In this document: positions 812 through 63,633 of the stretch, in pieces
How positions within the stretch are numbered: the stretch's first letter is position 1
Layout of the letters: each line of letters starts with the position of its first letter
From: Nitrosomonas marina
GTDB taxonomy: Bacteria > Pseudomonadota > Gammaproteobacteria > Burkholderiales > Nitrosomonadaceae
Assembly (NCBI RefSeq): GCF_900111605.1
Contig: NZ_FOIA01000002.1
Location: forward strand, 1-64,000
Length of the DNA: 64,000 nucleotides
Direction of reading: 5' to 3'
Program-made: the position numbers and the translations under genes
The notes under the pieces: generated by a model
What the model was told of the DNA's origin: nothing
Database searches by the model: none
Seen by the model: only the letters and a program-made list of their open reading frames with translations

Positions 812-834
812 GGCCTGGCGCTTGGAGGGAACCG

Positions 835-14835: not shown

Positions 14836-14892
14836 ATTTAAGTCATGCCGATATTTTCAACCTTTTACGGGAAAAAAACCAGTAGCTAAAAA

Positions 14893-37931: not shown

Positions 37932-38038
37932 CATACGGCGCAACACAATATACCCACTGTCAAAAGCCTTACGTGGAAATATTTTTTTGTTAAAGATGAT
38001 CAAGGTCATCATCAAAAATTCAACTCAGAACCTTACAG

Positions 38039-38752
38039 ATGACTATCACTACGGTAATTCCTAAAGCGAAGCTGACATCCTGCGAACGCTGGAAGCTGAA
38101 TTCCTTTGACACGCCCAAAACAGAAATACCCGCAGACCACGCGCAATCTGATGATTCAGCCCGCAATACAGCAGCGGCTGTCAATACAAACGAATTAGAA
38201 ATTATAGTTCAAACCGCAAAAGAAGATGGCCTCAAAAAAGGCTATGATGAAGGATATAAAAATGGTATTGAAGAAGGCCGTAATAAGGGTTATCTGGAAG
38301 GAAAACAGCAAGGCGAGTCGGAAGTCAAGGCTGAGCTTAGTCAAATCAATTCAGTATTCAGCAACCTGAATCAGCAGATCCAGTCTATTGAGCAACATAT
38401 TGCACAAGATATGCTAACGCTTGCGATCAGTCTTGCCAAAAAAATGATTACACAGGCACTTACAATACATCCTGAACTGATCCTGCCGGTTGTTCAGGAA
38501 GCTGCCCGCCAGCTTTCCGGTTCCGAACATGACTTACAGATTTTTGTTCATCCCGACGATGCTGAAATCATTCGCCGGTACCAGAACGAACAGTCGGCGC
38601 AGGTTCACTGGAAAATTCATGAGGATACACAACAGGAACGAGGCGGTTGCCGTCTAGCGGCAGGCGGAAGTGAAATTGATGCCAGTATGGGAACGCGGTG
38701 GCACCGCGTGCTGGCAGCTATAGGTCAAAATGATGACTGGATCGATAAATAA
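38039..38752 (+). CDS. fliH: Flagellar export ATPase regulator FliH
   Basis: 237 residues with a central stretch of glycine-spaced repeats ([17 protein letters not shown]) typical of the FliH stalk, followed by the conserved C-terminal domain that binds FliI. The N-terminal 60 residues are poorly conserved. FliH holds and regulates the export ATPase FliI. Its end overlaps fliI by 23 bases; 107 bases separate it from fliG. Confidence 0.92.
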
Positions 38753-40169
38753 TCTTCAAATGCACAACCATCATGAAAACTGGCGTAACTATCTGGATAA
38801 TTGCAACCAGCTCATCTCGGCATCAGAGCCGGTTGTAACAAATGGTACTGTTACACGCGTTACCGGTCTGGTTATGGAAGCGGCCGGACTTAAACTGCCT
38901 ATCGGCAGCAGTTGCACTATTTTTTTGTCCAATGGAAACAATGTATCTGCAGAAGTTGTCGGCTTTTCGAATGAACGCCTTTATTTAATGCCTACCAGTG
39001 AAATTTTTGGACTGGCGCCCGGCGCAAAAGTGATGCCGGCGGAAATGCCCGTGGAAACACCAAAAATTGGAATGAAGCAGCATCCACGAAGACGTGCCTC
39101 AGATCAGGCAAAGCATGTTAGGGTCGGCGAAGGATTGCTTGGACGCGTGCTGAATGGACTCGGCGAACCGCTTGATCACTTGGGGTTAATAGCAGCAGGA
39201 AAAAGCGTTCCTCTTTACAGCAGGCCATATAATCCGTTGGAGCGAGCGCCGGTTTCTCATCCACTGGACGTGGGTGTGCGTGCGATTAATACCTTGTTGA
39301 CTGTTGGTCGGGGGCAGCGCATGGGTCTTTTTGCCGGCAGCGGTGTTGGCAAAAGCGTACTTTTGGGGATGATGGCGCGCTACACCGCTGCTGACGTCAT
39401 CGTTGTCGGTTTGATCGGGGAACGTGGACGAGAGGTGAAGGAATTCATTGAGAATATACTGGGAAACGAGGGATTATCGCGCTCAGTCGTGATTGCGGCG
39501 CCTGCTGATACATCGCCACTGATACGACTTCAGGGTGCGGCCTATGCTACTGCAATCGCGGAATTTTTCCGTGATGAAGGTAAACATGTATTGCTGATCA
39601 TGGATTCACTGACACGCTATGCTATGGCACAAAGAGAAATTTCACTGGCCATCGGAGAACCACCGGCTACAAAAGGATATCCGCCATCAGTATTTGCACG
39701 ATTGCCGCAACTTGTCGAACGTGCCGGTAATGGCAAACATGACAGCGGTTCCATTACCGCTTTTTACACTGTATTAACCGAAGGAGACGATCATAACGAT
39801 CCAATTGCCGACAGCGCACGCGCCATTTTAGACGGACATATTGTGCTATCACGCCGAATAGCGGAATCCGGTCATTACCCGGCAATCGATATTGAGGCAT
39901 CCATCAGTCGTGTCATGGCCAGCATTGTATCGCCGGAACATATCGAAGCAGCAAGAAAATTCAAAAGCATGTATTCGCATTACCAGCGTAACCATGACTT
40001 GATCAGTGTCGGTGCCTATGTATCAGGCTCCGATCCATTGTTGGATCGCGCAATTAAAATTTATCCGGCGCTTAGCCATTTTCTCCAGCAAGGCATGACG
40101 CAACAGGAAAATTATGGTAACAGCATTAACAATCTGTTTTCCCTGTTCAATCATCAGGACAGTCAATAA
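38730..40169 (+). CDS. fliI: Flagellum-specific ATP synthase FliI
   Basis: 479 residues with an N-terminal beta-barrel and a RecA-like core: Walker A GSGVGKS (203-209), Walker [12 protein letters not shown], and the [18 protein letters not shown] segment. It is the hexameric ATPase that unfolds and delivers flagellar export substrates. It starts within fliH, showing translational coupling; the first 20 residues may be shorter if a later ATG (38760) is used. Confidence 0.96.
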
Positions 40170-40184
40170 CATATCGAATCAAAC

Positions 40185-40640
40185 ATGTCGAACCTGACGC
40201 CTTTAAAAAAACTACTCGAGCTCGCACAGAAACAAAGCGACGATTCGGCCAGACAATTGGGGAGATTGAATTTTCATCATAAGGAAGCTGAAAAAAAACT
40301 AAATCTGCTATTACAGTACCGACAAAGCTATCAGGATCGTCTACAGAATGCAGCTCGAAATGGCATCGGGCATGTTGAATGGCAGAATTTCGTAACGTTT
40401 ATGAATAAACTTGACAATGCCATTTCTGAACAGAAGCTTGCAGTGAAGCACACAGAAGCCAACTGCCAGACCGGTAGCAATACTTATCAGTCCTGTCAAC
40501 GCAAACTCAATGCTTATTCTGCGCTGGCCCAGCGTCACCAGGAATCAGAAAAAGCACAACAAAAAATCACAGAACAGAAGACTCTGGATGAATTTACCGC
40601 CAACCGTGTGGCTCGCGATAATAGGAATACCACCAAATAA
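40185..40640 (+). CDS. fliJ: Flagellar export chaperone FliJ
   Basis: 151 residues, almost entirely charged coiled coil, as in FliJ, which links FliI to the export gate FlhA. Sequence conservation in this family is low, so the call rests on length, coiled-coil character and its place between fliI and fliK. It starts 15 bases after fliI. Confidence 0.9.
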   Translation: MSNLTPLKKLLELAQKQSDDSARQLGRLNFHHKEAEKKLNLLLQYRQSYQDRLQNAARNGIGHVEWQNFVTFMNKLDNAISEQKLAVKHTEANCQTGSNTYQSCQRKLNAYSALAQRHQESEKAQQKITEQKTLDEFTANRVARDNRNTTK

Positions 40641-40718
40641 AAACGAAAGATTATTCGCTACTGGCACAAACGTTGCTTTTATACATAAAAGACATTAATT
40701 ATTTAAGCGAGAACAACT

Positions 40719-42290
40719 ATGCTGAATTCACCCCTTCCCTTACCAATACAGATTCAAACAAAACAGCCCGTTATTCACAATACCAATTTAACGCATGCCG
40801 GTGAGTCAGGGAAAGCAGAAGGAACCTCATTTGATAAGGTTCTGGAGCGTGAAGTCGCACAAAAAAAACAAGCAACATCAACCGAAAGTAACACAACAAA
40901 TACAAACAACAGCGATACGGAATCAAACGGCAGCATAAAAGACAAAACCACTACACCCAGTACAAATGATGCTTCCAATACCGAGAAAAACTCAACTGAA
41001 TCTTCTTCAGTTAAAACAGGTTCAAATAACGAGCACAAATCAGGGCAAAAGGACGAAGAAGTTGAAACCGGACCAATTTCAGATAATTCCGGCATTGTTC
41101 ACGCGCAGTTACCTCAACGAGTTCCTGTGCCTGCATTCTCCACTGATCAACCCGATATACATGCAAATAACACCAGGTTAAAACAGACATCTGGCATAAC
41201 TTCAGTGCACTTGACGGTTCAATCGGAAACACAACAGCAAATTATGCAAAGCGATTTACCACATCAAAACCCATGGCAATCTTCACATGCGGACAGTTTT
41301 GCCGGTATTGACTCCACTGATCAACCCGATATACATGCAAATAACACCAGGTTAAAACAGACATCTGGCATAACTTCAGTGCACTTGACGGTTCAATCGG
41401 AAACACAACAGCAAATTATACAAAGCGATTTACCAGATCAAAACCCATGGCAATCTTCATATGCGGACAGTTTTGCCGGTATTGACAAAAGTCTGCCACT
41501 ATTAAACAGTCATACTCATGGTTTAATTGGTGGCAACAATTTAAATAAAACAGTTAACCTGACAAACACAGCTAAGAACGATAGCTTCCCGCAATTCTTT
41601 ACTGCGGACGTTAAACAAAATCTGATCGAAAATAAAGAGCTGTGGCAGTTATTGCATGCGGCAAATTTTGCCGATAACGAAAAAACCACGGAATTTTCCC
41701 TAGATACCGGTAAAGATTTTTTAGCACGGTTTAATGAATTCGGCGCAATGATACAAACAGATTCCGATACATTATTTCAGCCCGGATTAAACAATTCGTC
41801 ACAAATATTTTCTCAAACTGCTTCACAAGCAACAGTTTCGCAGCATGTCGAACTTGACGTTCAAATCGGACAGCCCAAGTGGAATGGAGAATTTGCTCAA
41901 AAAATCGTTTGGCTTGCTAATCAGCAAAACCAGTTTGCCGAACTCCGCCTGAATCCAGCTCATCTCGGTCCTGTTGAAATTATGTTAAGCCTAACAAACG
42001 ACAATGGAACCCAGGCATCGGCCCAATTTGTATCACCACATTTGGCAGTTCGCGAGGCAATAGAGGCGGCTTTGCCAAGATTACGTGAATTAATGGCCGA
42101 AAGCGGCATTCAGCTTGGTGATGTAATGGTCGGTGCCGAGTCGTTTCAGCAGCAGGAAAAAAGCGAACAGCATGCACGCCATGCGAACGATAACGCAGGC
42201 TTGATTAACGCACAAAATTTTTCTGACACAATTCCGGAAGAAGTGACTTCGTCAGGCAAACACAGCGGAATTGTCAATACATTTGCCTAG
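40719..42290 (+). CDS. fliK: Flagellar hook-length control protein FliK
   Basis: 523 residues. The first 370 are low-complexity, rich in Ser, Thr, Asn and Gln, as expected for the extended ruler part. The C-terminal domain (about 385-475) has the conserved LRLNPAHLGPVEIMLSL block and QFVSPHLAVREAIEAALPRL. FliK measures hook length and switches export specificity. Residues about 141-255 hold a nearly identical 58-residue tandem duplication, described separately. Confidence 0.94.
   Translation: MLNSPLPLPIQIQTKQPVIHNTNLTHAGESGKAEGTSFDKVLEREVAQKKQATSTESNTTNTNNSDTESNGSIKDKTTTPSTNDASNTEKNSTESSSVKTGSNNEHKSGQKDEEVETGPISDNSGIVHAQLPQRVPVPAFSTDQPDIHANNTRLKQTSGITSVHLTVQSETQQQIMQSDLPHQNPWQSSHADSFAGIDSTDQPDIHANNTRLKQTSGITSVHLTVQSETQQQIIQSDLPDQNPWQSSYADSFAGIDKSLPLLNSHTHGLIGGNNLNKTVNLTNTAKNDSFPQFFTADVKQNLIENKELWQLLHAANFADNEKTTEFSLDTGKDFLARFNEFGAMIQTDSDTLFQPGLNNSSQIFSQTASQATVSQHVELDVQIGQPKWNGEFAQKIVWLANQQNQFAELRLNPAHLGPVEIMLSLTNDNGTQASAQFVSPHLAVREAIEAALPRLRELMAESGIQLGDVMVGAESFQQQEKSEQHARHANDNAGLINAQNFSDTIPEEVTSSGKHSGIVNTFA
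41138..41485 (+). repeat. 174-bp tandem duplication inside fliK
   Basis: Two direct repeats, 41138-41311 and 41312-41485, each 174 bases (58 codons), keep the frame. I count three base differences between them (Met/Ile, His/Asp and His/Tyr changes). Such near-identity points to a recent duplication. It lengthens the ruler region of FliK. Confidence 0.93.
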
Positions 42291-50936: not shown

Positions 50937-51836
50937 TTATTGCTTTGAATCTTGTTGAAACGATTTAACGTGTTTTAACCAGTTAATCGTATAGTCAAAC
51001 AACTCATGACGCCACTCCGGCCTTGAAAATGTATGATCCGCCTCGAGAATATTCTTCAACGTCACACGCTTGCAAGCAACCAATTCCTGCCAGATCGAGG
51101 AGGCTTTGACGTAATCATTAAATTCCCTTGCAATATAGTCCTGTCCACTCGTTAAAATGAACATCTCACCTGTAAACTGCTGACAGCTTTTCGCCAGACG
51201 TTCTGGTAAAGGTAATGTCTCAAATGCATCATTGTCAACAGAATCGATATTTCTTTTCGAACTCGACAGCGTCGATTTAATCATGTCTATGCATGAACGC
51301 AACGAAGCTGTTAATGAAAAATCACCGGATATAACCTTCGTCCAGAACGATTTCTCAAACAGACGATGCCAGTAATAATACCTGATCATGGTCTTGGCTA
51401 AGCCCGCTTCGGTCCGAATCCAAGGGTTTACCATAAAAATACCTAGAATACGTGGATCTGAATAACTATAAAACGCACTGGCGGTTGCGGATTCGCACTC
51501 CCCCCATAAAACAATTTTCTCGATTTCAGGTACATGGCTGAGCAAAGTATTCACCGCACTTTGTATATCAGCACCCATATCGATAAAACCACGCAATTCA
51601 CCAGCACTATCGCCCGTACCACGATGATCAAAACGAATAGATGCAATGGCATGACTGGCAAGCAATCTGGAAAGTGTCACAAACTGCCTGTGTGCACCTA
51701 CACGGTACTGCGGTCCGCCAGCAACCACGATCACCACGCCAACTTTGCCTGCACTCTCCGGTTTATTGATAATGCCGACCAGCGGATCGTTTTCACACGG
51801 AAAAACAACGGGAATTTCAGTATGGATGGGTGACAT
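50937..51836 (-). CDS. Alpha/beta hydrolase, exosortase A system-associated type 1
   Basis: 299 residues from ATG 51836, which overlaps the end of the preceding hydrolase by 20 bases; a longer frame to 51953 lies inside that gene. It has the alpha/beta-hydrolase core with AGGPQYRVGAHRQF and RFDHRGTGDSAG. The nucleophile elbow reads Gly112-Glu-Cys114-Glu-Ser116, so cysteine replaces the usual serine. It resembles hydrolase 1 of exosortase A loci, where it is always paired with hydrolase 2. The function is unknown; release or transfer of a carrier-bound acyl group is plausible. Confidence 0.78.
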   Translation of the reverse strand: MSPIHTEIPVVFPCENDPLVGIINKPESAGKVGVVIVVAGGPQYRVGAHRQFVTLSRLLASHAIASIRFDHRGTGDSAGELRGFIDMGADIQSAVNTLLSHVPEIEKIVLWGECESATASAFYSYSDPRILGIFMVNPWIRTEAGLAKTMIRYYYWHRLFEKSFWTKVISGDFSLTASLRSCIDMIKSTLSSSKRNIDSVDNDAFETLPLPERLAKSCQQFTGEMFILTSGQDYIAREFNDYVKASSIWQELVACKRVTLKNILEADHTFSRPEWRHELFDYTINWLKHVKSFQQDSKQ

Positions 51837-52650
51837 AGCGTACTGTGGCTTCAACGAGTTCTGGTACAAGCGTGCGCTCATGCGCAAGCCAGAACGGTGG
51901 TCCAATAATCTCCTGATGATCGACTCGTATGTCATGTTGCCGCAACTTCTCAATCATCATCATATCGCCTTTTGGTGTTTTCCTGTCTGAACTGGCAATC
52001 ACGGTAAACCAGCCGACAGGTACTGCAAGTGAATTGATAAATGAATCAAATTTTGCAGCTTTTATACCTTTAAAAAGATCAGGTCCAACATCGTATCCTG
52101 ATACATTAATATGCCGACCGTTGTTGATCAGGTTCTCCAGTTCCTGGATTGTTTCCTGTTGCTCTCCACGTTGCATGGATGCAGCAATTCTGATGCGCAG
52201 AAATTGTGTTAAAGCGGCCTGGCCGTTTATAACCGGCTGCCAGAAAATCAAACGCTGCAAGCACTCGGTTGTACCAGCGGCCTGCATGGCTTGTAGTGCA
52301 CCTAGCCTCACTCCCAGAATAGATACTTTCTGATAACCCAACGTTCCGGCATATGATATTGCTGTCTGTAAATCCTGACAGCTTTGATTCCAACTTGAAT
52401 CTTTATAATCACCTTCACTGTCGCCTGTACCGTAAGCATCCACCGACAAAAAACCGAAATCAAACTGCGATATCTGCTGGGCGAACATTGTACTCATATA
52501 GCGGCAGCGATTCATTTCTTCTGCAAAAGATGCTGCTACAACTATGCACTCCGATTTATCAGTGATATTGGGTGGTGCATAGTGTAAAGCAAATAACTTC
52601 CCTGCTCCACCACGAATATAATCAGCCTCGACTTTGAATTGCGAACGCAT
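51817..52650 (-). CDS. Alpha/beta hydrolase, exosortase A system-associated type 2
   Basis: 277 residues. The alpha/beta-hydrolase fold is visible: an N-terminal ALHYAPP strand region, FAEEMNRCRYM, and SVDAYGTGDSEG. The nucleophile elbow reads Gly113-Val-Arg115-Leu-Gly117, so the nucleophile position is arginine and the protein may not be a classical hydrolase. It resembles hydrolase 2 of exosortase A/EPS clusters. It starts 3 bases after the second carrier-protein gene and overlaps hydrolase 1. Confidence 0.78.
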   Translation of the reverse strand: MRSQFKVEADYIRGGAGKLFALHYAPPNITDKSECIVVAASFAEEMNRCRYMSTMFAQQISQFDFGFLSVDAYGTGDSEGDYKDSSWNQSCQDLQTAISYAGTLGYQKVSILGVRLGALQAMQAAGTTECLQRLIFWQPVINGQAALTQFLRIRIAASMQRGEQQETIQELENLINNGRHINVSGYDVGPDLFKGIKAAKFDSFINSLAVPVGWFTVIASSDRKTPKGDMMMIEKLRQHDIRVDHQEIIGPPFWLAHERTLVPELVEATVRYVTHPY

Positions 52651-52653
52651 AAT

Positions 52654-52899
52654 TCAGAGTTTGGATTCGACCAGTTGCGTTAAACTGCCAATTGTTTTGA
52701 ACACCTCCGCAGTGATTTCATCATCTTCAAAAACACAACCGTATTCATCTTCCAGTGCAGTAATAATGGCAACCACTGACATGGAGTCAAATTCAGGGAT
52801 ATCACCCATTAGACCAGTCGAGGCATTAAAATCATCTGCGCGATCACCAAGTACCAGTACATCACGCACAATATTGATTATTTCATTTTCCAGTTTCAT
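52654..52899 (-). CDS. Acyl carrier protein (second of the operon)
   Basis: 81 residues, acidic, with the phosphopantetheine serine Ser39 in PEFDSMSV. The stretch ADDFNASTGLMGDIPEFDSM is like the carrier protein that accompanies the exosortase-associated hydrolases. It would carry an acyl group handled by the neighbouring enzymes. It is 27 bases after the GNAT-like gene and 3 bases before hydrolase 2. Confidence 0.88.
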   Translation of the reverse strand: MKLENEIINIVRDVLVLGDRADDFNASTGLMGDIPEFDSMSVVAIITALEDEYGCVFEDDEITAEVFKTIGSLTQLVESKL

Positions 52900-52926
52900 T
52901 CACACATTCCAGTAAAAACGATAAAT

Positions 52927-53814
52927 TTACAAATCCAAAGCGACCAGTTCACTATATAAATTCTGAATATTGTCAGCTGATATTTCATCACTTAAGTAAA
53001 ACTTCTGAGTTCCTTGCTCCGGTTTAAACCATGATTTAATCGGTTGGTCCAGCAATCGGGCTTCTATTTTACTCGTAAACAGTCCGTGTTTAAGGAGCAG
53101 ATGCGCACGTATGGCCGGCCAACACTGGCGAAATAGAGCTGCGTCGCTAATGTACATTATCCATGCGCTACCCAGCCTTTTATAAAGCCGTCGTTTGTAA
53201 ATCAAAAAACCATACCTGTTTCCTTCTTTAAAAAACAAGTAATTCAGCCATGAGAAATGAGCATGATCCTGATATTGTTTAGCGACTGGCTCCGGCAAGT
53301 GCTGTAATAACTGTTGATTATCCCGAAATTCAGGGATTTGGCCGGCACCAAACGCAGACGGCCAGTTCAAAAAAATTAACACATGATTATCCAACGGTTT
53401 GAATTTCAAATACCTGAATATTTCAAGTCCATCCTTGTTGGGTGAAAACATAGTGAATATATAGGCTTTCTGTTGTATCAACGCCAGAACAAGCTCAATA
53501 CTACGCTTGCGAAACTCGGCAAGTACACACCAGCTGTGCGGGTTGCAAAATCGTTTCAGCTCTCCGGCAATAGACTGTTCGGAGTAAATAGCACATAGAA
53601 CACCCACAATCTGCGCATCATTTTTGAGCATAAAGCCATAATTCGGCACTTCTGGCATCCAGGATTGACTGATACCCTGCTTCCATTCAGATTGTGTAAA
53701 TCGGTTATTCATATGATGATGCAGGAATAGCGCCACGTCATCCAGATCCTCTTCAAGGATTGGCGTCAAATTTGTTGCATCGACTGCAGAATGCTTTTTT
53801 GGATTGTTTGACAT
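52927..53814 (-). CDS. GNAT-like protein of the carrier-protein operon
   Basis: 295 residues. The N-terminal part has the layout of a GNAT acyltransferase: EEDLDDVALFLHHHMN, a central VGVLCAIYSEQ beta-strand pair, and a helix with RKRSIELVLALI after a short loop. The canonical Q/RxxGxG/A acetyl-CoA loop is not clear. The C-terminal half contains several aromatic clusters and no known motif. It may move an acyl group from a carrier protein to an unknown acceptor. It is 4 bases upstream of nothing but the MaoC/SDR fusion gene. Confidence 0.5.
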   Translation of the reverse strand: MSNNPKKHSAVDATNLTPILEEDLDDVALFLHHHMNNRFTQSEWKQGISQSWMPEVPNYGFMLKNDAQIVGVLCAIYSEQSIAGELKRFCNPHSWCVLAEFRKRSIELVLALIQQKAYIFTMFSPNKDGLEIFRYLKFKPLDNHVLIFLNWPSAFGAGQIPEFRDNQQLLQHLPEPVAKQYQDHAHFSWLNYLFFKEGNRYGFLIYKRRLYKRLGSAWIMYISDAALFRQCWPAIRAHLLLKHGLFTSKIEARLLDQPIKSWFKPEQGTQKFYLSDEISADNIQNLYSELVALDL

Positions 53815-53817
53815 TTT

Positions 53818-55275
53818 CTACCGTGTTGATGTGTTTATCGATAAAAGTACATCCAGCATTGTCGCAGCTGTAGTCTGCGCCCACTTTACATTTAAACCGC
53901 TGGTCTGATCAGTCAGCATTCTTGGCAATCTGGGCACATGAAATATCCAGTTTGGATATTTTGCTGATAATTGTTGAACAAAAGCCTCTACAGCAGCTTT
54001 GGCTGCAATATATTCAGTGAACCCATTCTGGGGTTGTTCAAGAAATATTGTTGATGGAACAAAAACTGTTATCGGCTGCTTGCCATATGCGGCATCGCAT
54101 AAAAATTTTTCAATCAGCGCTGCAAAACCCGTCAGGTAAAAATTACAGTATTTATGAAAGACTGTATTATCCCATAGCAAGCGATCTCCTTTTTCGATTA
54201 AAGGAGACGCAAAATAATAAATATGCGAAATACGCTCATTTGAAATACAGTTTGTAATATTAACTTCCTGTCCGGACAAAACGTTATATGAAAGAACATC
54301 ACAGCGTCCGCCGTGCGAGCGAATATCGTCGGCTATCTTTTGCGCATCCTGCTTTCCCTGGTTGTATGTGATCACAGAATAACCGCCGCCGGCGGCTATC
54401 AATTTGGCGGTCACCTCGCCAATACCACGCGAGCCACCTATTATCAGTGCCTTCTGTTCAACAAACTGGTTTTTCGGTACAAATGTCTGTAATTCAGTGT
54501 AAGTTTCCTGCGATACCGGTTCAGGCCGAAATAGTGCGTGAATTTCTCCATTTGCAGTATTATGCGTAACTCCAATAGTCACCAGCGAAAAACGATTGTC
54601 ACGATGCAGAACTGTAAACTTCAGATTCCTGTCACAGGCCGTAGCCTTCTGTTTAAAATGTACTGACAATCCGGTAAAAACTGAGTGAAGTCCGGGACAA
54701 TGCATGCCAACAATCTGAGTTAAACCCAGTATTACTGCAATCTGGTTATCCGGTAAAAATTTCATAACGTAAGGGAACAATCCCTGAACAGTATCAGGTA
54801 TCCAGACCAAATCCAGCATGCCTTCCAGATCTCTGGTGTTCTCAAAATGCAGGTCTACAGGCTGTGGCGTTTCTTTCGACACGGGGTGATACGTAACCAT
54901 TTCCGGCTCTATACCAGATTGATCTCCAAATTTCAGATCGATATCCTGAACCCGGCGCTCTTGTACTGACAATCGCAACTTGAAATCCTGTTCTGTAATT
55001 TGCTGGCTGAACACATCGACACGGTCGCCATGCAGTACCGGGCGAACAAACTGCACCTTTAGGGTGTCGATCGACACCGTACAGCCATGCATCTTCAACA
55101 TACAATCCAGCGCTTTAAGAACACCATTCACGCCATGCATCACTGTGCTTCCGAATTGATACCGTCGTGCAAGTACAGGGTCAACATGCAAGGGATTGTA
55201 ATCACCCGATACTTGCGCAAACCGACAACTTGTCTCCTGATCAACCTGAAACGCGCCTATTTTATGCCAGTTCAT
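53818..55275 (-). CDS. MaoC-like hydratase / short-chain reductase fusion
   Basis: 485 residues. The N-terminal MaoC hot-dog (about 1-120) has the catalytic Asp25 and His30 (GDYNPLH). A middle region (135-255) looks like a second hot-dog half. The C-terminal short-chain dehydrogenase (273-485) has the nucleotide-binding GGSRGIG (280-286) and the Ser408-Tyr422-Lys426 triad. Together they suit hydration and reduction of a beta-oxo or enoyl acyl group on a carrier protein. Both active sites look intact. It is 18 bases after FkbH. Confidence 0.85.
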   Translation of the reverse strand: MNWHKIGAFQVDQETSCRFAQVSGDYNPLHVDPVLARRYQFGSTVMHGVNGVLKALDCMLKMHGCTVSIDTLKVQFVRPVLHGDRVDVFSQQITEQDFKLRLSVQERRVQDIDLKFGDQSGIEPEMVTYHPVSKETPQPVDLHFENTRDLEGMLDLVWIPDTVQGLFPYVMKFLPDNQIAVILGLTQIVGMHCPGLHSVFTGLSVHFKQKATACDRNLKFTVLHRDNRFSLVTIGVTHNTANGEIHALFRPEPVSQETYTELQTFVPKNQFVEQKALIIGGSRGIGEVTAKLIAAGGGYSVITYNQGKQDAQKIADDIRSHGGRCDVLSYNVLSGQEVNITNCISNERISHIYYFASPLIEKGDRLLWDNTVFHKYCNFYLTGFAALIEKFLCDAAYGKQPITVFVPSTIFLEQPQNGFTEYIAAKAAVEAFVQQLSAKYPNWIFHVPRLPRMLTDQTSGLNVKWAQTTAATMLDVLLSINTSTR

Positions 55276-55292
55276 CTTCGTATTTTTGAATG

Positions 55293-57188
55293 TTATTGAA
55301 TCACCGATGATTTTCTGACTGTGATGGGTGGATTTTTCATTTGGTAATGCTCAACTGCCAGATCCCAGATATCTTCAGATTCATCTGAACAAATACAGTC
55401 AAATCCGAGCTGACGATAATGCTCTTTGACAAGGCCGTTTTTCTCAGTTGGACGATAAAATCCGCGCAGCTTGCTTATTCCGCTTTTTCTTGCAAGTGCA
55501 ACCAGTTGGTCACAAACCGCCTCTTCAACCCTGCGCTTTATAACGCGACAGCTCATGAGCCAGGTATCGATATCCCAGCGGTCCTGGTGAACTTTACAAA
55601 TAACAACACTGATCATGCCGTTATCACCGAATTTATCCTGCAATTCTATCTGAAGTGTTACATACTGCTGATCATTCTCGAACTGCAACACGTCCGTTTC
55701 GGTATAACGCCGTGTTGTCAAATTGAACTGATTGGTTTTATTGATGAGCTGTACGATGCGTTTACGACCCAGTTCGTTGAACGGTGAAAAGCTAATGTAC
55801 ATTTCAAGCGAAGCCAGATAGTCTTCCAGGGTTGCGGCAGTTTTTTGAATTTCCTGGCGTCGAGCGTTGCTCAAATATTGCGCGTTTCGCTGTGCATCAT
55901 CTTCGGTGAAATCGATTTTCTCGAAAAAACGTCCAGCACACAATATCCGCAAGAACTGCGATGAATCTTTGGGCAGTTCAGGCACAGTTAATTCGGGCAG
56001 CATTGTACGGACAATTTCACGCTCAGCGGGATTATCGTCAACGAACACCATTGCATCCAGGCCAATATTCAATGTTTCTGCTATAAATCTGATATTCGTC
56101 GCCTTGTCTTCCCAGTTAGCCACAAAAACAGCAAAATCATTCTCTTTCAACAGCATGCCGGAATGCTTTCGAAACACTTCCAACGCAATATTTTCATCAT
56201 TTTTTGAACATACCGTCAAAATGACACCCAGATCTTTTAATGTCTTCGCCCACTGTTGAATTGCAAGAAACGATTCACCAACCGGATTTCCTTGTCCTAT
56301 CTGTATTCCTTCCAATCCATCATCACCGACCACGCCGCCCCACAGTGTATTATCCAGATCCAGTACCAAACATTTTTTACTTTTTCCGCGTAATGCGGCG
56401 ACCAGCTTAGTTAAATACTCGGCATACAGCGGGACAAAGACATTTGCCATTGGTACCCTGGATAAATACCATTGCCGTTCATCAAACCACTGACAGGCGC
56501 CAACCATATTGACCAACGCTGCAACATCGAACAGCACATCCACACTGCTTCTGATATCGTCTACCAGCGCACGATTAAATTCAGTCAGCGATTTACGCAA
56601 TAAACCATCAAGCTGAGCATCAAAATTCCCCCCAAATTCGTAAGGTGGTTCTGCTAGTGTTTGCGCTATGCAAATCATGCCGCCACTCTGTTTGAAGGAA
56701 TCTCTGATTTGCTTCAGATAATCAAAAGCTTTATCACTAGGCAACACCTCCCCAGACGTGCTTAATTGATCAGCAAGAAATGGATAGGCGTGATAATCCA
56801 GTGCTATCAGTACAGCATCCAGTCTTGCCGTATTAAGTTTCGAACCTGCATCAAACGCCTCCTGTGCTACCTGACCGAAATCTGTTGAAACCACCTCAAT
56901 ATCTATGCCATTGCGAATTGCCGAAATTACGATAGACGGGATCATCAAATCCATGGTCGCATTACTGACTATGCCCAATCTGAAAGGCGTCAGTGAACGG
57001 CTCAGCAATGAACGGGTTTCAGCAGTTAACTTTCCAATGGCCTGATACAAGCGATTGGCCTGATTAATGGACAATGCATATTTCGCTAGTGCATGTACTT
57101 CGGCGACAGGAGTCTGGTGACGCCCCAACTGGATGCAGCGTTCATTAAAATCATCGGAAGGAGCGAGTAACCAGGGTAGATCGTGCAT
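55293..57188 (-). CDS. FkbH-like HAD enzyme (glyceryl-carrier-protein synthase type)
   Basis: 631 residues. An N-terminal domain with an SGNH-like fold (about 65-250, SNATMD region) is followed by a HAD-IIIC domain with Asp277 and Asp279 in DLDNTLWGGVVGDDG, CSKNDE (327-332) and VDDNPAE (383-389). A C-terminal acyltransferase-like domain (450-610, KTNQFNLTTRRY) follows. FkbH enzymes dephosphorylate 1,3-bisphosphoglycerate and load glyceryl onto a carrier protein in polyketide and surface-glycan pathways; the same fusion also occurs in other acyl-transfer pathways. It is 20 bases after the first carrier-protein gene. Confidence 0.9.
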   Translation of the reverse strand: MHDLPWLLAPSDDFNERCIQLGRHQTPVAEVHALAKYALSINQANRLYQAIGKLTAETRSLLSRSLTPFRLGIVSNATMDLMIPSIVISAIRNGIDIEVVSTDFGQVAQEAFDAGSKLNTARLDAVLIALDYHAYPFLADQLSTSGEVLPSDKAFDYLKQIRDSFKQSGGMICIAQTLAEPPYEFGGNFDAQLDGLLRKSLTEFNRALVDDIRSSVDVLFDVAALVNMVGACQWFDERQWYLSRVPMANVFVPLYAEYLTKLVAALRGKSKKCLVLDLDNTLWGGVVGDDGLEGIQIGQGNPVGESFLAIQQWAKTLKDLGVILTVCSKNDENIALEVFRKHSGMLLKENDFAVFVANWEDKATNIRFIAETLNIGLDAMVFVDDNPAEREIVRTMLPELTVPELPKDSSQFLRILCAGRFFEKIDFTEDDAQRNAQYLSNARRQEIQKTAATLEDYLASLEMYISFSPFNELGRKRIVQLINKTNQFNLTTRRYTETDVLQFENDQQYVTLQIELQDKFGDNGMISVVICKVHQDRWDIDTWLMSCRVIKRRVEEAVCDQLVALARKSGISKLRGFYRPTEKNGLVKEHYRQLGFDCICSDESEDIWDLAVEHYQMKNPPITVRKSSVIQ

Positions 57189-57208
57189 GAATACTTTATG
57201 AGCTGTTT

Positions 57209-57457
57209 TTATGCGAGCTTTGCATGTAAGAGATCGACTATGGTGGATACGTCGATCATATTACCTATTTCATCCAGGTCAAATTGAACGCCAAAATTTG
57301 CTTCAATAGCAGTCAACAATCTGATATGACTCAAACTGTCCCATTCTTCAATATCATCGCGTGTGGTATTAATTGAGAAAGAATAATTATCCTCGGTGAA
57401 CGTATCTTGAAAAATAGAGTTCAACTGATCGAGTATTGCTTCCTTGTCTTGGCTCAT
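57209..57457 (-). CDS. Acyl carrier protein (first of the operon)
   Basis: 82 residues with Ser41 in EEWDSLSHI as phosphopantetheine site and the usual four-helix pattern. It differs clearly from the second carrier protein of the operon, so the two probably carry different groups or meet different enzymes. It is the first gene; 146 bases separate it from the flgA stop, room for a promoter. Being directly before FkbH it is the likely acceptor of the FkbH product. Confidence 0.9.
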   Translation of the reverse strand: MSQDKEAILDQLNSIFQDTFTEDNYSFSINTTRDDIEEWDSLSHIRLLTAIEANFGVQFDLDEIGNMIDVSTIVDLLHAKLA

Positions 57458-57603: not shown

Positions 57604-58320
57604 TTAAGGGTTCACTTCGACAATTGCATTTTGCCTAGCCAGACCACTGATAATACGTCCGGAGGGATTGCGTACTTGAACAACCTGACCCTCAGCCGCA
57701 TCTGCCAACGCGTGTCCTTCAGAACTGACACTAAACCCACGCCCGTTAACCATTAATTTCACGTTTTGTCCCCTCAATATCACATTAGGAGCGCGCAGCA
57801 TATTCTTCCGCAGGGGCTGTCCCATGGTCAGATTTGAAACCACTATTTTACCAACGGCTTGCGAATAATCTGTCAAAACACCCTCAGGCATTTGCGTCAG
57901 ATTAACAGTCTGAGGCGCCACATCGCCATGGGTAATCGTGTGATCGCGTGATACCGGCTGTGTAACATGCAGCACATTTGCAAAGATCTTGACTTCAACC
58001 TGCACATAAATTGTCCAGGACACCTGATCGTCACAACGTACACCTATTGATGTTTTTCCCCACAAACGGCTGCCCGATGGCATAAACGGTATCAATTTTT
58101 CACATTTTGGCAGCGTAATTCGCTGATCAATCTGGCCGACTTCAACCTGAACATCGCCGGCAGGATTGACTGCATGATTGGAAACATAATCTTCAACTGC
58201 CTTTTGTATCAACGAAATTTCCTGATACCTCGATTGCGTGTGAGGACTTTCTGCAAACAGGCAAATTGGACTAGCCATTACTAAAAAAAAACCTAACACT
58301 GTAATTTTACGCATACACAT
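57604..58320 (-). CDS. flgA: Flagellar P-ring assembly chaperone FlgA
   Basis: 238 residues. A signal peptide (about 3-24, ending FAES) precedes the SAF/FlgA region with VSRDHTITHGDVAPQTVNLTQ-like, QPLRKNMLRAPNVILRG and GQVVQVRNPSGRIISG. It helps P-ring (FlgI) assembly in the periplasm. It is divergent from flgB, the common arrangement. ATG 58314 is an alternative start. Confidence 0.93.
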   Translation of the reverse strand: MCMRKITVLGFFLVMASPICLFAESPHTQSRYQEISLIQKAVEDYVSNHAVNPAGDVQVEVGQIDQRITLPKCEKLIPFMPSGSRLWGKTSIGVRCDDQVSWTIYVQVEVKIFANVLHVTQPVSRDHTITHGDVAPQTVNLTQMPEGVLTDYSQAVGKIVVSNLTMGQPLRKNMLRAPNVILRGQNVKLMVNGRGFSVSSEGHALADAAEGQVVQVRNPSGRIISGLARQNAIVEVNP

Positions 58321-58371: not shown

Positions 58372-58542
58372 CAGGACAATATATTAATGCGAATTAACAA
58401 CCCAGGTGTTTAGAGTTAGCGGCTATTTTACGTTCTTTTTGAGCCATTGCTGATACATGAAATGAAATAGCATAGTCGACATGGAAAAAATGGCATGAAA
58501 AATGCATTCAATGATATCAACTCATTTTTATCAGGAAGTCAT

Positions 58543-58947
58543 ATGATCAGCAAGTTAGATAAAACAGTAAACTTTCATCAGCAAGCGCTAGGCCTCAGAG
58601 CTGCGCGGCAGGAACTGCTTGCAAGCAATATTGCAAATGCCGACACCCCAAATTTTAAGGCAAAAGATATTGATTTCTCGAACGTATTAAAGGAAAAACT
58701 TGCGACAACTGCGCCTGCGACAGCGCTTTCGACAACTTCACCTATGCATATCAGTAACAACAAAGGTAGCGGCATCAGCAACAGCGTTCTTTACCGCGTT
58801 CCATTGCAGCCCAGCGCTGACGGCAATACGGTAGATATGGATTCAGAGCGTACACGGTTTGCTGATAATTCAATCAAATATGATGCCAGTTTAACCTTTA
58901 TCAGCGGGCAATTCAGAAACCTGCTGTCAGCTATCCAGGAGCGATAA
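58543..58947 (+). CDS. flgB: Flagellar basal-body rod protein FlgB
   Basis: 134 residues from ATG 58543, supported by AGGAAG 5 bases upstream; an in-frame ATG at 58495 would add 16 residues not seen in the family. The rod-protein signature [21 protein letters not shown] is visible near residue 30. FlgB forms the proximal rod. It is the first gene of flgBCDEFGHI. Confidence 0.95.
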
Positions 58948-58949
58948 TC

Positions 58950-59354
58950 ATGTCACTGTTTAAAGTATTCAACATTGCAAGTTCTGCAATGACCGCGCAG
59001 TCTCAACGCCTAAACGTAGTGGCGAGTAATCTGGCGAACGCCGATAGTGTCACAGATTCATCGGGGGAACCCTATCGTGGACGACAGGTTGTTTTTAGCA
59101 CACTTTTGGCGGATGAAAGCGGTGCCAGCGGTGTTAAGGTTGCCGGTGTGGTTCATGATGCTTCACCAATGAAAAAAACCTTCGAACCGAATCACCCGCT
59201 CGCCGATGAAGACGGTTACATCATCAAACCAAATGTCAATGTTGTTGACGAAATGGTCAACATGATGTCTGCATCGCGTTCGTATCAAAACAATGTAGAT
59301 ATCCTGAACACGACTAAATCTTTACTGCAAAAAACGCTCACAATCGGTCAATAG
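58950..59354 (+). CDS. flgC: Flagellar basal-body rod protein FlgC
   Basis: 134 residues, normal length. The N-terminal ASNLANADS signature and the C-terminal [19 protein letters not shown] block are those of the rod protein family. It starts 3 bases after flgB. Confidence 0.96.
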
Positions 59355-59368
59355 GGAGTTAGATAAAC

Positions 59369-60040
59369 ATGAATACCGTCCAAGAAGTCAATAAGCAACC
59401 GTATTCGACGACAAACATCTCTACCTCTGCAGATAAAAATAAAAACAGTGTAGATAACCCGCAAGATCGCTTTTTAAAGCTGCTGGTTACTCAGATGCAG
59501 AATCAAGATCCCCTTAATCCACTTGACAACGCCGAAGTAACAAGCCAGTTGGCTCAAATCAGCACTGTAACCGGTATAGACAAACTCAATGATACGTTAC
59601 AACTGCTGCTTGATGGCATTGAAGACAGCCGGACGCTGGAAGCAACCAATCTCATCGGCCACAAAGCGCTGGTACCCGGCACAACTTTGTCGCTCGACAA
59701 TAATGCGGCTATTGGCGGATTCGAGTTGCCGCAATCCGTAGACAAACTCAGCGTCACTATTCTCGACAGCTCTGGTATCGCAGTACGCACACTTGAACTA
59801 GGCGCACAACCTTCTGGTGTCAATACTTTTATTTGGGATGGTATTGCTGATAGCGGTGCAAATGCAGCAAACGGCCAATACAGTTTCGCCATTAAAGCGG
59901 TACAAGGAGATCAGGAAATGACGGCCAGTCCGCTTGCTTTAGGTCAGGTCGAAAGCGTATCGGCGGGTGAACATGATGCCATACTCGACATGGGCAGGCT
60001 TGGCCTGATTAATATGGCGGACATCAAACAGATATTCTAG
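59369..60040 (+). CDS. flgD: Flagellar hook assembly scaffold protein FlgD
   Basis: 223 residues. The N-terminal export and capping segment DRFLKLLVTQMQNQDPLNPL is highly typical, followed by the Ig-like FlgD domains. It forms the cap on which hook subunits assemble and is lost afterwards. It lies between flgC and flgE, 14 bases from each. Confidence 0.96.
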   Translation: MNTVQEVNKQPYSTTNISTSADKNKNSVDNPQDRFLKLLVTQMQNQDPLNPLDNAEVTSQLAQISTVTGIDKLNDTLQLLLDGIEDSRTLEATNLIGHKALVPGTTLSLDNNAAIGGFELPQSVDKLSVTILDSSGIAVRTLELGAQPSGVNTFIWDGIADSGANAANGQYSFAIKAVQGDQEMTASPLALGQVESVSAGEHDAILDMGRLGLINMADIKQIF

Positions 60041-60053
60041 GAAGGAGTTAAAA

Positions 60054-61316
60054 ATGGGATTCCAGCATGGATTAAGCGGATTAAACGTAGCATCAAAAAG
60101 CCTTGATGTTATTGGTAACAACATAGCAAATGCAAACACTATCGGATTTAAACAGGGGCAGGCCCAGTTTAGCGATGTATATGCCAACGCATTATCTGGT
60201 GCACTCAAGGATAAAACCGGTATAGGCGCTAAAGTGGCTGATATAGCCCAGGAATTTACACAAGGGAATATCACTGTAACAGACAATCCACTAGATATCG
60301 CAATTAACGGTAATGGGTTCTTTCGCATGAACGATAACGGCGCCACTACATACAGCCGAAATGGTCAGTTCCATGTTGATGCCAACGGGTATATTGTCAA
60401 CAACAGTAATTTAAATCTGACTGGATACGCAACCGATGCCAACGGTCAGGTTTTGACAGCTGACCCGACAAATTTAAGAATATCGACTGCTGCTCTGACC
60501 CCCAATACAACGACAAGCTTCAATACAGAATTAAATCTTGATTCGAGAGTAGCAGTACCAGCACCGGTGCCTACTTTTGATGCAACTGATCCTTCAACAT
60601 ACAATGGCACCACATCGGGAACGATATATGACAGTCTGGGCAATTCGCATATTTTTTCTATGTACTTTCAGAAGAATGCCGCCAATTCCTGGGACATGTA
60701 CGCAACTGTTGATGGCCAGACAACAGCTGCCGGCGTGCCGGTTGGTGTAACGCTCGGAGGCGGTGCATCTCAAGCGTTGACTTTTGATACCAACGGCAAT
60801 TTAACCGCTCCAGCCGTACCAATTAACGTATCGGTTGATCTTGCAACAATTAATCCCGCATTAGGCGCAACATCTCCACTTGATTTCTCTTTGGATCTAA
60901 CCGGTACTACACAGTTTGGCACTGCGTTTGGTGTCAATGCAATCAGTCAGGATGGATTTTCATCAGGTACCATTGCCGGTTTTTCCATTGATGAAGAAGG
61001 TTTTATTAACGGTAACTATACAAACGGCGAATCCCGGAAACTAGGTCAGGTTGTATTGGCCAACTTTACCAATCCGCAAGGTTTAATACCGATCGGAGAC
61101 AATCAGTGGGTGGAGTCGAAAGCATCTGGCCAACCGCTTGTGGGTGCACCAGGGTCCGGCACTATGGGTGTACTGCAATCTTCAGCTATTGAAGAGTCTA
61201 ATGTAGACCTTACCGCCGAGCTGGTTAATATGATAACCACACAACGCATCTACCAGGCAAACGCAAAAACCATCGAAACACAGGATGCTGTTTTACAAAC
61301 ACTGGTAAACCTGTAA
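60054..61316 (+). CDS. flgE: Flagellar hook protein FlgE
   Basis: 420 residues. The N-terminal SLDVIGNNIANANTIGFKQG and C-terminal TQRIYQANAKTIETQDAVLQ blocks are the conserved axial-protein ends. The middle has the variable D1/D2 hook domains. It makes the universal joint; its length is in the normal range (about 400-420). Confidence 0.96.
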   Translation: MGFQHGLSGLNVASKSLDVIGNNIANANTIGFKQGQAQFSDVYANALSGALKDKTGIGAKVADIAQEFTQGNITVTDNPLDIAINGNGFFRMNDNGATTYSRNGQFHVDANGYIVNNSNLNLTGYATDANGQVLTADPTNLRISTAALTPNTTTSFNTELNLDSRVAVPAPVPTFDATDPSTYNGTTSGTIYDSLGNSHIFSMYFQKNAANSWDMYATVDGQTTAAGVPVGVTLGGGASQALTFDTNGNLTAPAVPINVSVDLATINPALGATSPLDFSLDLTGTTQFGTAFGVNAISQDGFSSGTIAGFSIDEEGFINGNYTNGESRKLGQVVLANFTNPQGLIPIGDNQWVESKASGQPLVGAPGSGTMGVLQSSAIEESNVDLTAELVNMITTQRIYQANAKTIETQDAVLQTLVNL

Positions 61317-61329
61317 TAGGTAAACAATT

Positions 61330-62073
61330 ATGGACCGCCTGATTTACACAGCAATGTCTGGGGCAGCACATACGCTGAACCAAAAAGCAACAGTTTCACA
61401 TAACCTGGCCAACGCATCCACGACGGGTTACCGTTCAGAAAATAATGCGTTTCGTGCTGTACCAGTTTATGGTGACGGTTTGCCGACTCGCGCGTTTGTA
61501 GTCGATTCAACGACCGGGGCAGATTTCACACCCGGCCCAATTCAACAGACTGATCGTAATCTTGATGTGGCGATTCGCGGGTCAGGGTGGATCACAGTCG
61601 AATTACCGGATGGTAAAGAGGCATATACTCGCAACGGCAGCCTGCAGATCAGTCCGAACGGGATATTGCAGACTCATAATGGTTTTAATGTCAAAGGAGA
61701 CACCGGGATCATTACCGTCCCTCAGGATAATCGCATCACCATTGCGAAAGATGGAACAGTATCGGCCGTACCAATCACACCACTGCCGAATACTGTCGCA
61801 ATTGTAGGTCGGATCAAGCTGGTTGATCCGCCAGAAAACCAGCTGATCAAAGGTGCAGACGGGTTATTCCGCATGAAAGATGAAATAGTTCCGCAGGCTA
61901 ACGCCAATGTAACACTTGTCGAAGGCGCACTGGAAGGAAGCAATGTCAATCTGGTGCACGAAATGGTCAGTATGATTGCACTGGCGCGCCAGTTTGATAT
62001 GCACATCAAGATTCTTGAAAGCGCAGAGCGTAATGCACAGCAAGCCAGCGAAATTATGGTTGTTCGAACATAA
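61330..62073 (+). CDS. flgF: Flagellar basal-body rod protein FlgF
   Basis: 247 residues. It starts with MDRLIYTAMSGAAHTLNQ, and LANASTTGYRSE and RQFDMHIKILESAE identify FlgF, a rod component between FlgC and FlgG. It starts 13 bases after flgE. Confidence 0.95.
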   Translation: MDRLIYTAMSGAAHTLNQKATVSHNLANASTTGYRSENNAFRAVPVYGDGLPTRAFVVDSTTGADFTPGPIQQTDRNLDVAIRGSGWITVELPDGKEAYTRNGSLQISPNGILQTHNGFNVKGDTGIITVPQDNRITIAKDGTVSAVPITPLPNTVAIVGRIKLVDPPENQLIKGADGLFRMKDEIVPQANANVTLVEGALEGSNVNLVHEMVSMIALARQFDMHIKILESAERNAQQASEIMVVRT

Positions 62074-62115
62074 ACATCAATTTCACCCGTTTAATCAACT
62101 TGTATGGAGTAAATC

Positions 62116-62898
62116 ATGATACGTTCTCTATGGATTTCAAAAACAGGACTTGATGCACAGCAAACCAAGATGGACGTCATTTCCAATAACCTTGCGAACG
62201 TCAGCACAAATGGATTTAAGCGAGCTCGAGCAGTCTTTGAAGACCTGCTTTACCAAACCGTTCGTCAGCCCGGCGCACAGTCTTCCCAACAAACGCAATT
62301 ACCATCAGGATTACAACTTGGAGTTGGTGTTCGTCCTGTTGCGACCGAAAGTATTTTCACACAGGGCAACCTTCAGCAAACAGGCAATCCACGTGATATT
62401 GCGATACAAGGTGAAGGTTTCTTTCAAGTATTAATGCCAGACGGCACAACGGCCTATACCAGAGATGGAGCATTTCAATCCGACATAAACGGCCAGTTTG
62501 TTACCTCAAGCGGCTATGTTATACAACCTTCCATTACAATTCCACCCAACACATTAAGCATTACCGTTGGGCGTGATGGAACAGTTTCGGCGCTGGTTCC
62601 CGGTTCGGCAACCCCAATACAGGTTGGCAATATTCAAATTGCAAGTTTCATTAATCCGGCCGGTCTGCAAAAAATTGGCGAGAATCTGTATTTACCCACA
62701 GCATCCAGCGGCGTGGCCAATCCCAACGCACCAGGAACAAATGGGCTTGGATTATTAAACCAGGGCTTTGTCGAAACCTCAAATGTCAATGTCGTAGAAG
62801 AGCTAGTAGGCATGATTCAAACGCAGCGCGCTTATGAAATCAATTCCAAGTCCATAGAAACATCCGACCAGATGCTGCAAAGACTTGCACAATTGTGA
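62116..62898 (+). CDS. flgG: Flagellar basal-body distal rod protein FlgG
   Basis: 260 residues, the standard length. The [20 protein letters not shown] and [20 protein letters not shown] blocks and the C-terminal [19 protein letters not shown] are diagnostic. It forms the distal rod that crosses the peptidoglycan and LPS rings. Confidence 0.97.
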
Positions 62899-62910
62899 TC
62901 TGACTGACCA

Positions 62911-63633
62911 TTGGACCGAACAGTGACACAACTCTTTTTGCAAAGCAAATCCTCGGTACTATTGCTGATGCTGATTGCCTGCGTGATGCTGGCTTCAGGA
63001 TGTGCATTAACACCGTCTACAACAATTCACCAGCCGATTACATCAAGGCCACTGCAAACTGAGGTGACTACGGATATCAGTGGTGGGATTTTTCAGGGTG
63101 TCAGCCATGCAGCCGGCACGCGCTACACACCACTTTTCGAAGACCGACGTGCACGGGGAATAGGCGACACGATCATCGTCACTTTGAATGAAAAAACAAA
63201 CGCTAGAAAACAATCAGGTAGCAACGTCGATCGTTCCGGCAGTTTTGATTTCTCAATTCCCACTGCTGTCCTTGGTATACCGTTAGACTTTTTAGGCGGC
63301 ACTGAAGTTGAAACGGCCACCAACAACACTTTTGATGGCAAAGGTGCCAGTTCCAGCAATAATGATTTCACCGGCACGATTGCAGTTACTGTCATAGAAG
63401 TAATGCCTAACGGTAATTTACTAGTCAGTGGAGAAAAACAGATCGGCATTAATCAAGGTCACGAATTCATCCGTCTTTCCGGTATGGTAAATCCGATTAA
63501 TATTATCAACAACACTGTCTCGTCGGTCCAGGTTGCTGACGCTCGCATCGAATATCGTGCTAATGGCTATATCGATGAAGCACAAACCATGGGTTGGCTG
63601 TCACGATTTTTTCTTAACGTGTCTCCGTTCTAG
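62911..63633 (+). CDS. flgH: Flagellar L-ring lipoprotein FlgH
   Basis: 240 residues from TTG 62911; a GTG at 62923 gives a shorter start and is equally possible, as no strong ribosome-binding site is visible for either. A lipoprotein signal ends in LASGC (Cys31 from the TTG). The L-ring domain ([19 protein letters not shown] and [20 protein letters not shown]) is complete. It forms the outer-membrane ring around the rod. Confidence 0.94.

Follow-up and report, generated by a model that had tools for sequence, protein, structure and literature searches.

In the butirosin side-chain system, which consists of BtrI, BtrJ, BtrK and BtrH, the off-loading is performed by BtrH. In the loading module of bryostatin BryA, FkbH, dehydratase and ketoreductase units have reportedly been proposed to turn a glyceryl group into a lactyl starter. 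In tetronate pathways, FkbH-like proteins and an acyl carrier protein (ACP) have been proposed to make glyceryl-ACP, and its partial reconstitution has been reported (PMC7489565, PMC4979870). In NCBIfam, the accessory families of the exosortase-A system, namely a ligase, a decarboxylase and paired hydrolases, carry the label 'hypothetical equivalog'. No described product was found for them in openly licensed literature, where search ranking could hide a paper, and PMC1569441 does not use the words hydrolase, ligase, acyl carrier or decarboxylase in its main text. Here we describe an operon of seven genes that combines features of these systems, at positions 50937 to 57457 of a 64,000-nucleotide stretch of Nitrosomonas marina DNA (contig NZ_FOIA01000002.1, positions 1 to 64,000), which we call the window.

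The operon is a new combination of known families. We suggest that it forms half of a split pathway that uses two carriers and is connected with the exosortase-A (PEP-CTERM/exopolysaccharide) system, a reading to which we give about an even chance, and that the pathway probably decorates a surface polymer rather than the flagellum. We define module A as ACP1, the FkbH-type enzyme, the fusion of a double-hotdog MaoC part with an SDR domain, and the GNAT-like protein, and module B as ACP2 and hydrolases 2 and 1, which are part of the exosortase-A-associated set. All seven are intact reading frames, listed here with the neighbouring flgA.

57209 to 57457, minus strand: ACP1, a stand-alone carrier protein of 82 amino acids with an EEWDSLSH site, paired with FkbH
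55293 to 57188, minus strand: FkbH-type enzyme of 631 amino acids (TIGR01686, FkbH_N)
53818 to 55275, minus strand: MaoC-SDR fusion of 485 amino acids, two hotdog-like domains and a Rossmann SDR domain (Pfam, AlphaFold2, Foldseek)
52927 to 53814, minus strand: GNAT-like protein of 295 amino acids without a curated family match, proposed to perform an acyl transfer or condensing step
52654 to 52899, minus strand: ACP2, a carrier of the exosortase-A-associated type with a PP-binding domain
51817 to 52650, minus strand: hydrolase 2 (TIGR03101), Arg115 at the nucleophile position
50937 to 51836, minus strand: hydrolase 1 (TIGR03100), Cys153-Asp272-His307 in the numbering of its 338-residue open reading frame (ORF)
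57604 to 58320, minus strand: flgA, a neighbour outside the proposed pathway, 146 bases upstream of ACP1 on the same strand

An earlier note on this DNA had described seven genes on one strand with gaps of at most 27 bases, two of the genes overlapping, and we found the same arrangement: the gaps in operon order are 20, 17, 3, 27 and 3 bases, followed by a single overlap between hydrolases 2 and 1. Because the first residues of the longer hydrolase 1 ORF are absent in 37 of 41 aligned rows, its start is probably the ATG at 51836 rather than the TTG at 51953, and therefore the overlap would be 20 bases, not 137. Counts of promoters and terminators were close to the shuffled background (20 against 18.9 and 9 against 6.9). 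No ketosynthase or condensation domain was found within the operon, and no glycosyltransferase or nucleotide-sugar gene was found accompanying it with Pfam and NCBIfam profiles.

Linkage to the exosortase-A ligase and decarboxylase

The absence of a CoA ligase and an exosortase, which the earlier note had pointed out, holds for the operon but not for the genome. Contig C65 of the window genome carries a TIGR03098 ligase (802.7 bits, cut-off 592) and a TIGR03099 decarboxylase (621 bits, cut-off 478), together with PrsK, PrsR, an asnB-like protein and an exosort_acyl protein, and two EpsH-type exosortases lie on contigs C90 and C62. No carrier or hydrolase match was found in the 19.9 kb of C65 that was read, and the window genes are the only hydrolase 1 above cut-off and the only ACP2-type match of the genome. 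The closest solved relatives of the C65 decarboxylase are two BtrK entries (285 bits), one of them named L-glutamyl-[BtrI acyl-carrier protein] decarboxylase, and the next is diaminopimelate decarboxylase at 188 bits.

The two sets of genes stand together in other genomes. In Ideonella sp. A 288 (locus L038), about 16 kb holds the decarboxylase, ligase, ACP1, FkbH, MaoC-SDR, GNAT-like protein, hydrolase 1, hydrolase 2 and ACP2, along with a PEP-CTERM protein, a polysaccharide flippase-type gene and an asnB-like gene, and the counterparts of the window gene sets are 34-47% identical. Within the genus, genome G059 (L262) shows ACP2, hydrolase 2, hydrolase 1, ligase and the GNAT-like gene in this order with pieces of FkbH, away from flgA, and an intact FkbH match lies on another contig. 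In G056 (L237), the order is GNAT-like gene, ligase, hydrolase 1, hydrolase 2 and ACP2, with no visible FkbH piece. Since the link recurs in three arrangements (the window type with C65, G056/G059, and Ideonella), we regard it as well supported that the window genes belong with the exosortase-A ligase/decarboxylase system.

A separate observation concerns the L237 locus, where two carrier/hydrolase sets (1653-5245 and 13238-15271) share a single contig of G056; one resembles the set of the window, and the other is of the ordinary exosortase-A type.

Sequence and structural features of the seven proteins

The earlier note had identified FkbH, two carriers, MaoC-SDR and the hydrolase pair with intact active sites in FkbH, MaoC, SDR and both carriers, and both statements were borne out, the families by curated cut-offs (ACP1 by its DSL site) and the residues by conservation in alignments. 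FkbH scores 315 bits against TIGR01686 (cut-off 147) and its FkbH_N domain passes the Pfam cut-off; D277, D279 and C547 are kept in all 15 aligned proteins and C327 in 12 of them. ACP1 has no Pfam match and a weak NCBIfam ACP match (E 1.6e-5, 25 bits against a cut-off of 66), and its phosphopantetheine Ser lies within the DSL site, as in its relatives. In genome G066, another FkbH protein adjoins a polysaccharide deacetylase (L202, 7876-10509), and MaoC-SDR was not found in that genome.

Both the MaoC and the adh_short domains of the fusion are above Pfam cut-offs. Its AlphaFold2 model (predicted local distance difference test, pLDDT, 88; predicted template modelling score, pTM, 0.82) shows hotdog-order helix-and-sheet units at residues 4-117 and 151-249 and a Rossmann domain from residue 275. 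When we searched with this model in Foldseek, the top 50 entries were all SDR-type, and for this reason the double hotdog assignment relies on the secondary structure of the model and the MaoC profile matches. Asp25, His30, Ser408 and Lys426 are present in all 13 sequences of alignment A3 and Tyr422 in 11 of 13; the catalytic Tyr of the SDR is replaced by Phe only in L037 and L042, and these two loci have no FkbH nearby.

No Pfam family matches the GNAT-like protein even when the threshold is relaxed to E 1, NCBIfam gives nothing at 0.001, and a profile of the protein finds no solved relative at E 1. Only its Ideonella homologue, which is 41% identical, touches GNAT models, with sub-threshold E values of 0.07 and 0.12, and the RRHGIG of that homologue corresponds to RKRSIE in the window protein. 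The structural model is of low confidence (pLDDT 43) and was built from three sequences only. A GNAT-like gene is present in 13 of the 85 genus genomes, each of which is also one of the 17 that have an FkbH match (the G055 copy is broken, and contig ends truncate the G046 and G047 copies); across the order, 6 of 399 genomes have one. In genome G221, a distant homologue (23% identity) follows a 1338-residue ORF with ligase similarity and one small ORF (L254, 5417-10685).

The PP-binding domain of ACP2 is above the Pfam cut-off, and ACP2-type carriers were found in 81 of 85 genus genomes, with one match in the window genome (E 1e-6). The assignment of the hydrolase pair to the exosortase-A set in the earlier note is confirmed by profile scores: hydrolase 2 reaches 209 bits against TIGR03101 (cut-off 203) and hydrolase 1 reaches 298 bits against TIGR03100 (cut-off 168), its Pfam score lying just below cut-off (25.5 against 27). 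The nucleophile position of hydrolase 1 is Cys153, not Ser, in 41 of 41 rows (about 36 distinct genes, five rows being cut copies), and Asp272 and His307 are kept in at least 95% of the 27 longer rows. Hydrolase 2 has Arg115 at this position in 35 of 35 rows from 34 distinct genes. TIGR03100 was detected in 24 of 85 genus genomes and 29 of 200 order genomes; in 21 of the 24, the start coordinates of hydrolase 1 and an ACP2-type carrier are no more than 3 kb apart. No match to hydrolase 1 was found in the plasmid collection at E 1e-20.

Distribution of the modules, the flgA position and rival readings

MaoC-SDR was found in 13 of 125 genomes of the family, all from the genus of the window. In six of these, window included, a type-1 cassette adjoins flgA, and ACP1 adjoins FkbH in all six loci. 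G019, G078 and G072 carry all seven genes followed by ndk, and G009 carries all seven beside flgA, with ndk not found in the stretches read; the operon thus lies between flgA and ndk in four of the six type-1 genomes, window included. A gene-order search in relatives, as proposed in the earlier note, thereby gives module A beside flgA in five other genus genomes, four with all seven genes, and the grouping is therefore more than chance. The stretch after flgA in G055 has no MaoC-SDR and holds fragments of FkbH, the GNAT-like gene and hydrolase 2 along with an intact ACP2; this locus is a decayed copy of the operon. The other seven MaoC-SDR genomes carry a type-2 homologue with 36-39% identity; in the four such loci on long enough contigs, FkbH, an ACP and an AAC(3)-like N-acyltransferase are nearby, mostly with a polysaccharide deacetylase-like gene too. 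In G073, FkbH adjoins separate MaoC and SDR genes amid deoxysugar-type genes.

The FkbH/MaoC-SDR core extends beyond the genus. A scan of the genome collection for MaoC-SDR listed 80 loci, of which 68 matched part of the MaoC domain only and were left out. The matches listed include at least 12 near full-length homologues, one of them from Nitrosomonas aestuarii Nm36 (NZ_QAAE01000007.1), and represent Pseudomonadota, Acidobacteria, Omnitrophota and Nitrospirae. Of the 11 others listed, eight have FkbH nearby (L033, L034, L035, L036, L038, L040, L041 and L044), seven of these with an ACP1-like carrier, which was not found in L040; L037 and L042 are without an FkbH match, and L039 is a 3-kb contig. 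When the genus loci, the listed loci and a plasmid locus of Niveispirillum are taken together, MaoC-SDR has FkbH at a distance of about 2 kb or less in at least 19; FkbH is absent in two, and five are cut by contig ends. The accompanying acyltransferase varies (GNAT-like, Antibiotic_NAT, WcbI or Acetyltransf_6), and the neighbours include glycosyltransferases, a flippase-type gene, deacetylases and MBOAT genes. On the Niveispirillum cyanobacteriorum plasmid NZ_CP025615.1 (L255), an FkbH_N-containing HAD-IIIC protein, an ACP, an acyltransferase and MaoC-SDR follow one another in this order, contiguous as such genes are in the operon, whereas the acyltransferase is of the WcbI family and no module B is among the listed genes of an incomplete gene table. 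Transposase genes flank this plasmid cassette on both sides, and it may be mobile.

Two independent modules may simply share the operon, the FkbH cassette making a lactyl or glyceryl group and handing it straight to a surface glycan through the GNAT-like protein, and ACP2 with hydrolases 2 and 1 serving the C65 ligase and decarboxylase only; we regard this as possible but not probable. Several observations weigh against one joined pathway. First, G074 has module A without module B beside flgA, and its locus of hydrolase 2, hydrolase 1, decarboxylase and ACP lies elsewhere, scoring nearer the ordinary exosortase-A type. Second, most genus genomes have the ligase/ACP2 system without FkbH (an FkbH match in 17 of 85, the TIGR03098 ligase above cut-off in 76 of 85), and therefore module B has an independent existence; flgA-adjacent ACP2-type carriers without the cassette occur in 39 of 85. 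In G020, ACP2, hydrolase 2 and hydrolase 1 lie about 1.1 kb from flgA next to a glycosyltransferase-type gene, with no FkbH match. Third, G070 (L201) has ACP1, FkbH and the GNAT-like gene without MaoC-SDR, away from flgA, and therefore a lactyl product cannot be universal. Fourth, nine of the ten distant MaoC-SDR loci among the matches listed show no module B, as is also the case for the type-2 loci, and several such cassettes adjoin Antibiotic_NAT, WcbI or polysaccharide deacetylase genes. Fifth, four GNAT-like genes outside the genus have no other window genes alongside in the stretches read, with weak ligase or decarboxylase similarity near two of them, and the GNAT assignment of the 295-residue protein itself rests on weak data. 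Finally, all 13 MaoC-SDR genomes are among the 17 with an FkbH match (Fisher p 3e-12, kinship of the genomes ignored), but the co-occurrence of FkbH, GNAT-like gene and MaoC-SDR within the genus is weak evidence because these genomes mostly also rank closest by FlgA. The independence of the modules is opposed by their rejoining, with both ligase and decarboxylase in Ideonella (34-47% identity) and with the ligase in G056/G059.

The operon is surrounded by flagellar and housekeeping genes and does not lie inside an exosortase/exopolysaccharide locus. As the earlier note stated, it stands between two flagellar loci, with FliF, FliG, FliH, a type III secretion/flagellar-type ATPase and a FliK-type protein at 35216-42290, and flgA followed by rod, hook and L-ring genes (58495-63633) on the other side. 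Farther away, at 775-5436 of the window, a 1553-residue protein fuses CheB, CheR, PAS, GGDEF and EAL domains.

From this placement, the earlier note had regarded decoration of flagellin or a glycan as possible but unproven; in a flagellar role, the operon would supply a hydroxyacyl substituent for flagellin or a flagellar glycan. The adjacency to flgA in six of six type-1 genomes and the flgA-ndk placement in four of them agree with such a role, and PMC7099621 places the FkbH-domain gene cj1302 in the flagellar glycosylation locus cj1293-cj1342 of Campylobacter jejuni. However, where related cassettes or cassette remnants were found in G070, G059 and Ideonella, the sequence read around them shows no adjoining flgA-flgD homologues, and therefore the flagellar position says little about function. 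The position is also accounted for by ACP2. In 40 of the 85 genus genomes, an ACP2-type carrier, its orthology judged from position and similarity only, is found no farther than 1.5 kb from flgA, and none of the 40 has a hydrolase 1 match; 39 of them are without the operon and the remaining one, G055, has the decayed copy. Carrier, decarboxylase and ligase form one group next to flgA in G060. Since the carrier adjoins flgA without the operon, the flgA position belongs to the ACP2-type carrier, and the FkbH cassette was probably inserted between flgA and ACP2. Moreover, among 12 genus genomes without a flgA match, some of them incomplete, the carrier is kept in 10 and the ligase in all 12, and therefore the ACP2/ligase system seems not to depend on flagella. 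Based on the cassettes away from flgA and on the ACP2-type carrier, flagellar decoration was rejected as the principal reading, and we consider it very unlikely.

Several genomes of the genus have, after flgA and the lone carrier, genes for a 122-residue DUF498 protein and a 75-residue protein; the L171 locus (2731-3537) is one such case.

A soluble small molecule or lipid head group of the natural-product kind, released by hydrolase 1, appears improbable as well. Secondary metabolism is where members of the FkbH and BtrK families are known, and the distant GNAT-like homologue of G221 comes just after the ORF with ligase similarity. Against this, the operon is without any detected ketosynthase or condensation domain, and the distant relatives stand amid glycosyltransferase, flippase-type, deacetylase and PEP-CTERM genes.

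The chance neighbourhood that the earlier note would have read from frequent separation fits in part, the genes being separate in G070, G074, the type-2 loci and most distant loci, but chance adjacency of all seven was rejected on account of Ideonella and G056/G059, and its milder form is that of two independent modules.

The proposed pathway and the closest described systems

Returning to the split two-carrier pathway, from the genes, their motifs and their synteny we infer the following steps and acceptor. By family, FkbH would dephosphorylate 1,3-bisphosphoglycerate and load glycerate on ACP1 as a glyceryl group. The MaoC domain may then take the 3-hydroxyl (beta-hydroxyl) off glyceryl-ACP1 to give a pyruvyl group, which the SDR domain would reduce to lactyl-S-ACP1. 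On the other carrier, the TIGR03098 ligase is predicted to place an amino acid on ACP2, and the BtrK-like decarboxylase, which uses pyridoxal phosphate, would act on aminoacyl-ACP2. We propose that the GNAT-like protein takes the C3 acyl group over from ACP1 and passes it to an amine, most likely the one on ACP2, because such a step accounts for two carriers and for a GNAT-like gene that stays with either module. Hydrolase 1, an alpha/beta hydrolase with a putative Cys-Asp-His triad, and the nucleophile-less hydrolase 2 may off-load the unit to a surface glycan, a protein or a small molecule. A surface polysaccharide or a PEP-CTERM protein is favoured as the acceptor because of the neighbours in Ideonella and other distant loci. 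Thus, of the suggestion in the earlier note that a glyceryl or hydroxyacyl group is loaded and transferred, the surface polymer stays the best reading and the flagellar part is not supported.

In its complete form, this would be a two-carrier line free of ketosynthase and nonribosomal peptide synthetase, in which the GNAT-like protein condenses lactyl- or glyceryl-ACP1 with decarboxylated aminoacyl-ACP2 and the Cys hydrolase with its dead partner transfers a lactyl-amino-acyl unit to an exosortase-linked polymer or protein; we put this forward tentatively and hold the whole chain to be rather doubtful. The FkbH/MaoC-SDR cassette would turn a glycolytic intermediate into lactyl-ACP for surface decoration. 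The accessory chemistry of exosortase-A now becomes testable, with a BtrK-like decarboxylase that has one candidate carrier and a nucleophile in hydrolase 1 only.

A search of openly licensed literature for FkbH together with an exosortase, or with an ACP, flagellin and glycosylation, found none, which does not prove absence from print. No FabH-like protein or FkbG-, FkbI- or FkbK-type gene is in the operon, the rest of the genome not having been searched for them.

When we compared the operon with the described systems, each showed a likeness and a difference. Like the FkbH/ACP module of tetronate and methoxymalonyl pathways, the operon pairs an FkbH bearing conserved motifs with a dedicated stand-alone ACP, but it has a MaoC-SDR fusion instead and no polyketide synthase was seen in it. 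The BryA loading module is matched by FkbH, a dehydratase-like double hotdog and a ketoreductase-like SDR, which we take as a lead only; the operon proteins differ in being stand-alone, with MaoC-type hotdogs and no ketosynthase. The butirosin system is approached through the C65 decarboxylase, closest to BtrK among solved structures, whereas the ligase is of the TIGR03098 type and off-loading would be by hydrolase 1 and not by BtrH. Finally, the exosortase-A set is matched by window hydrolases 1 and 2 above cut-offs, by the ACP2-type carrier, and by the ligase, decarboxylase and exosortases of the genome, but here the carrier and hydrolases stand apart from the ligase and decarboxylase and are joined to the FkbH cassette beside flgA.

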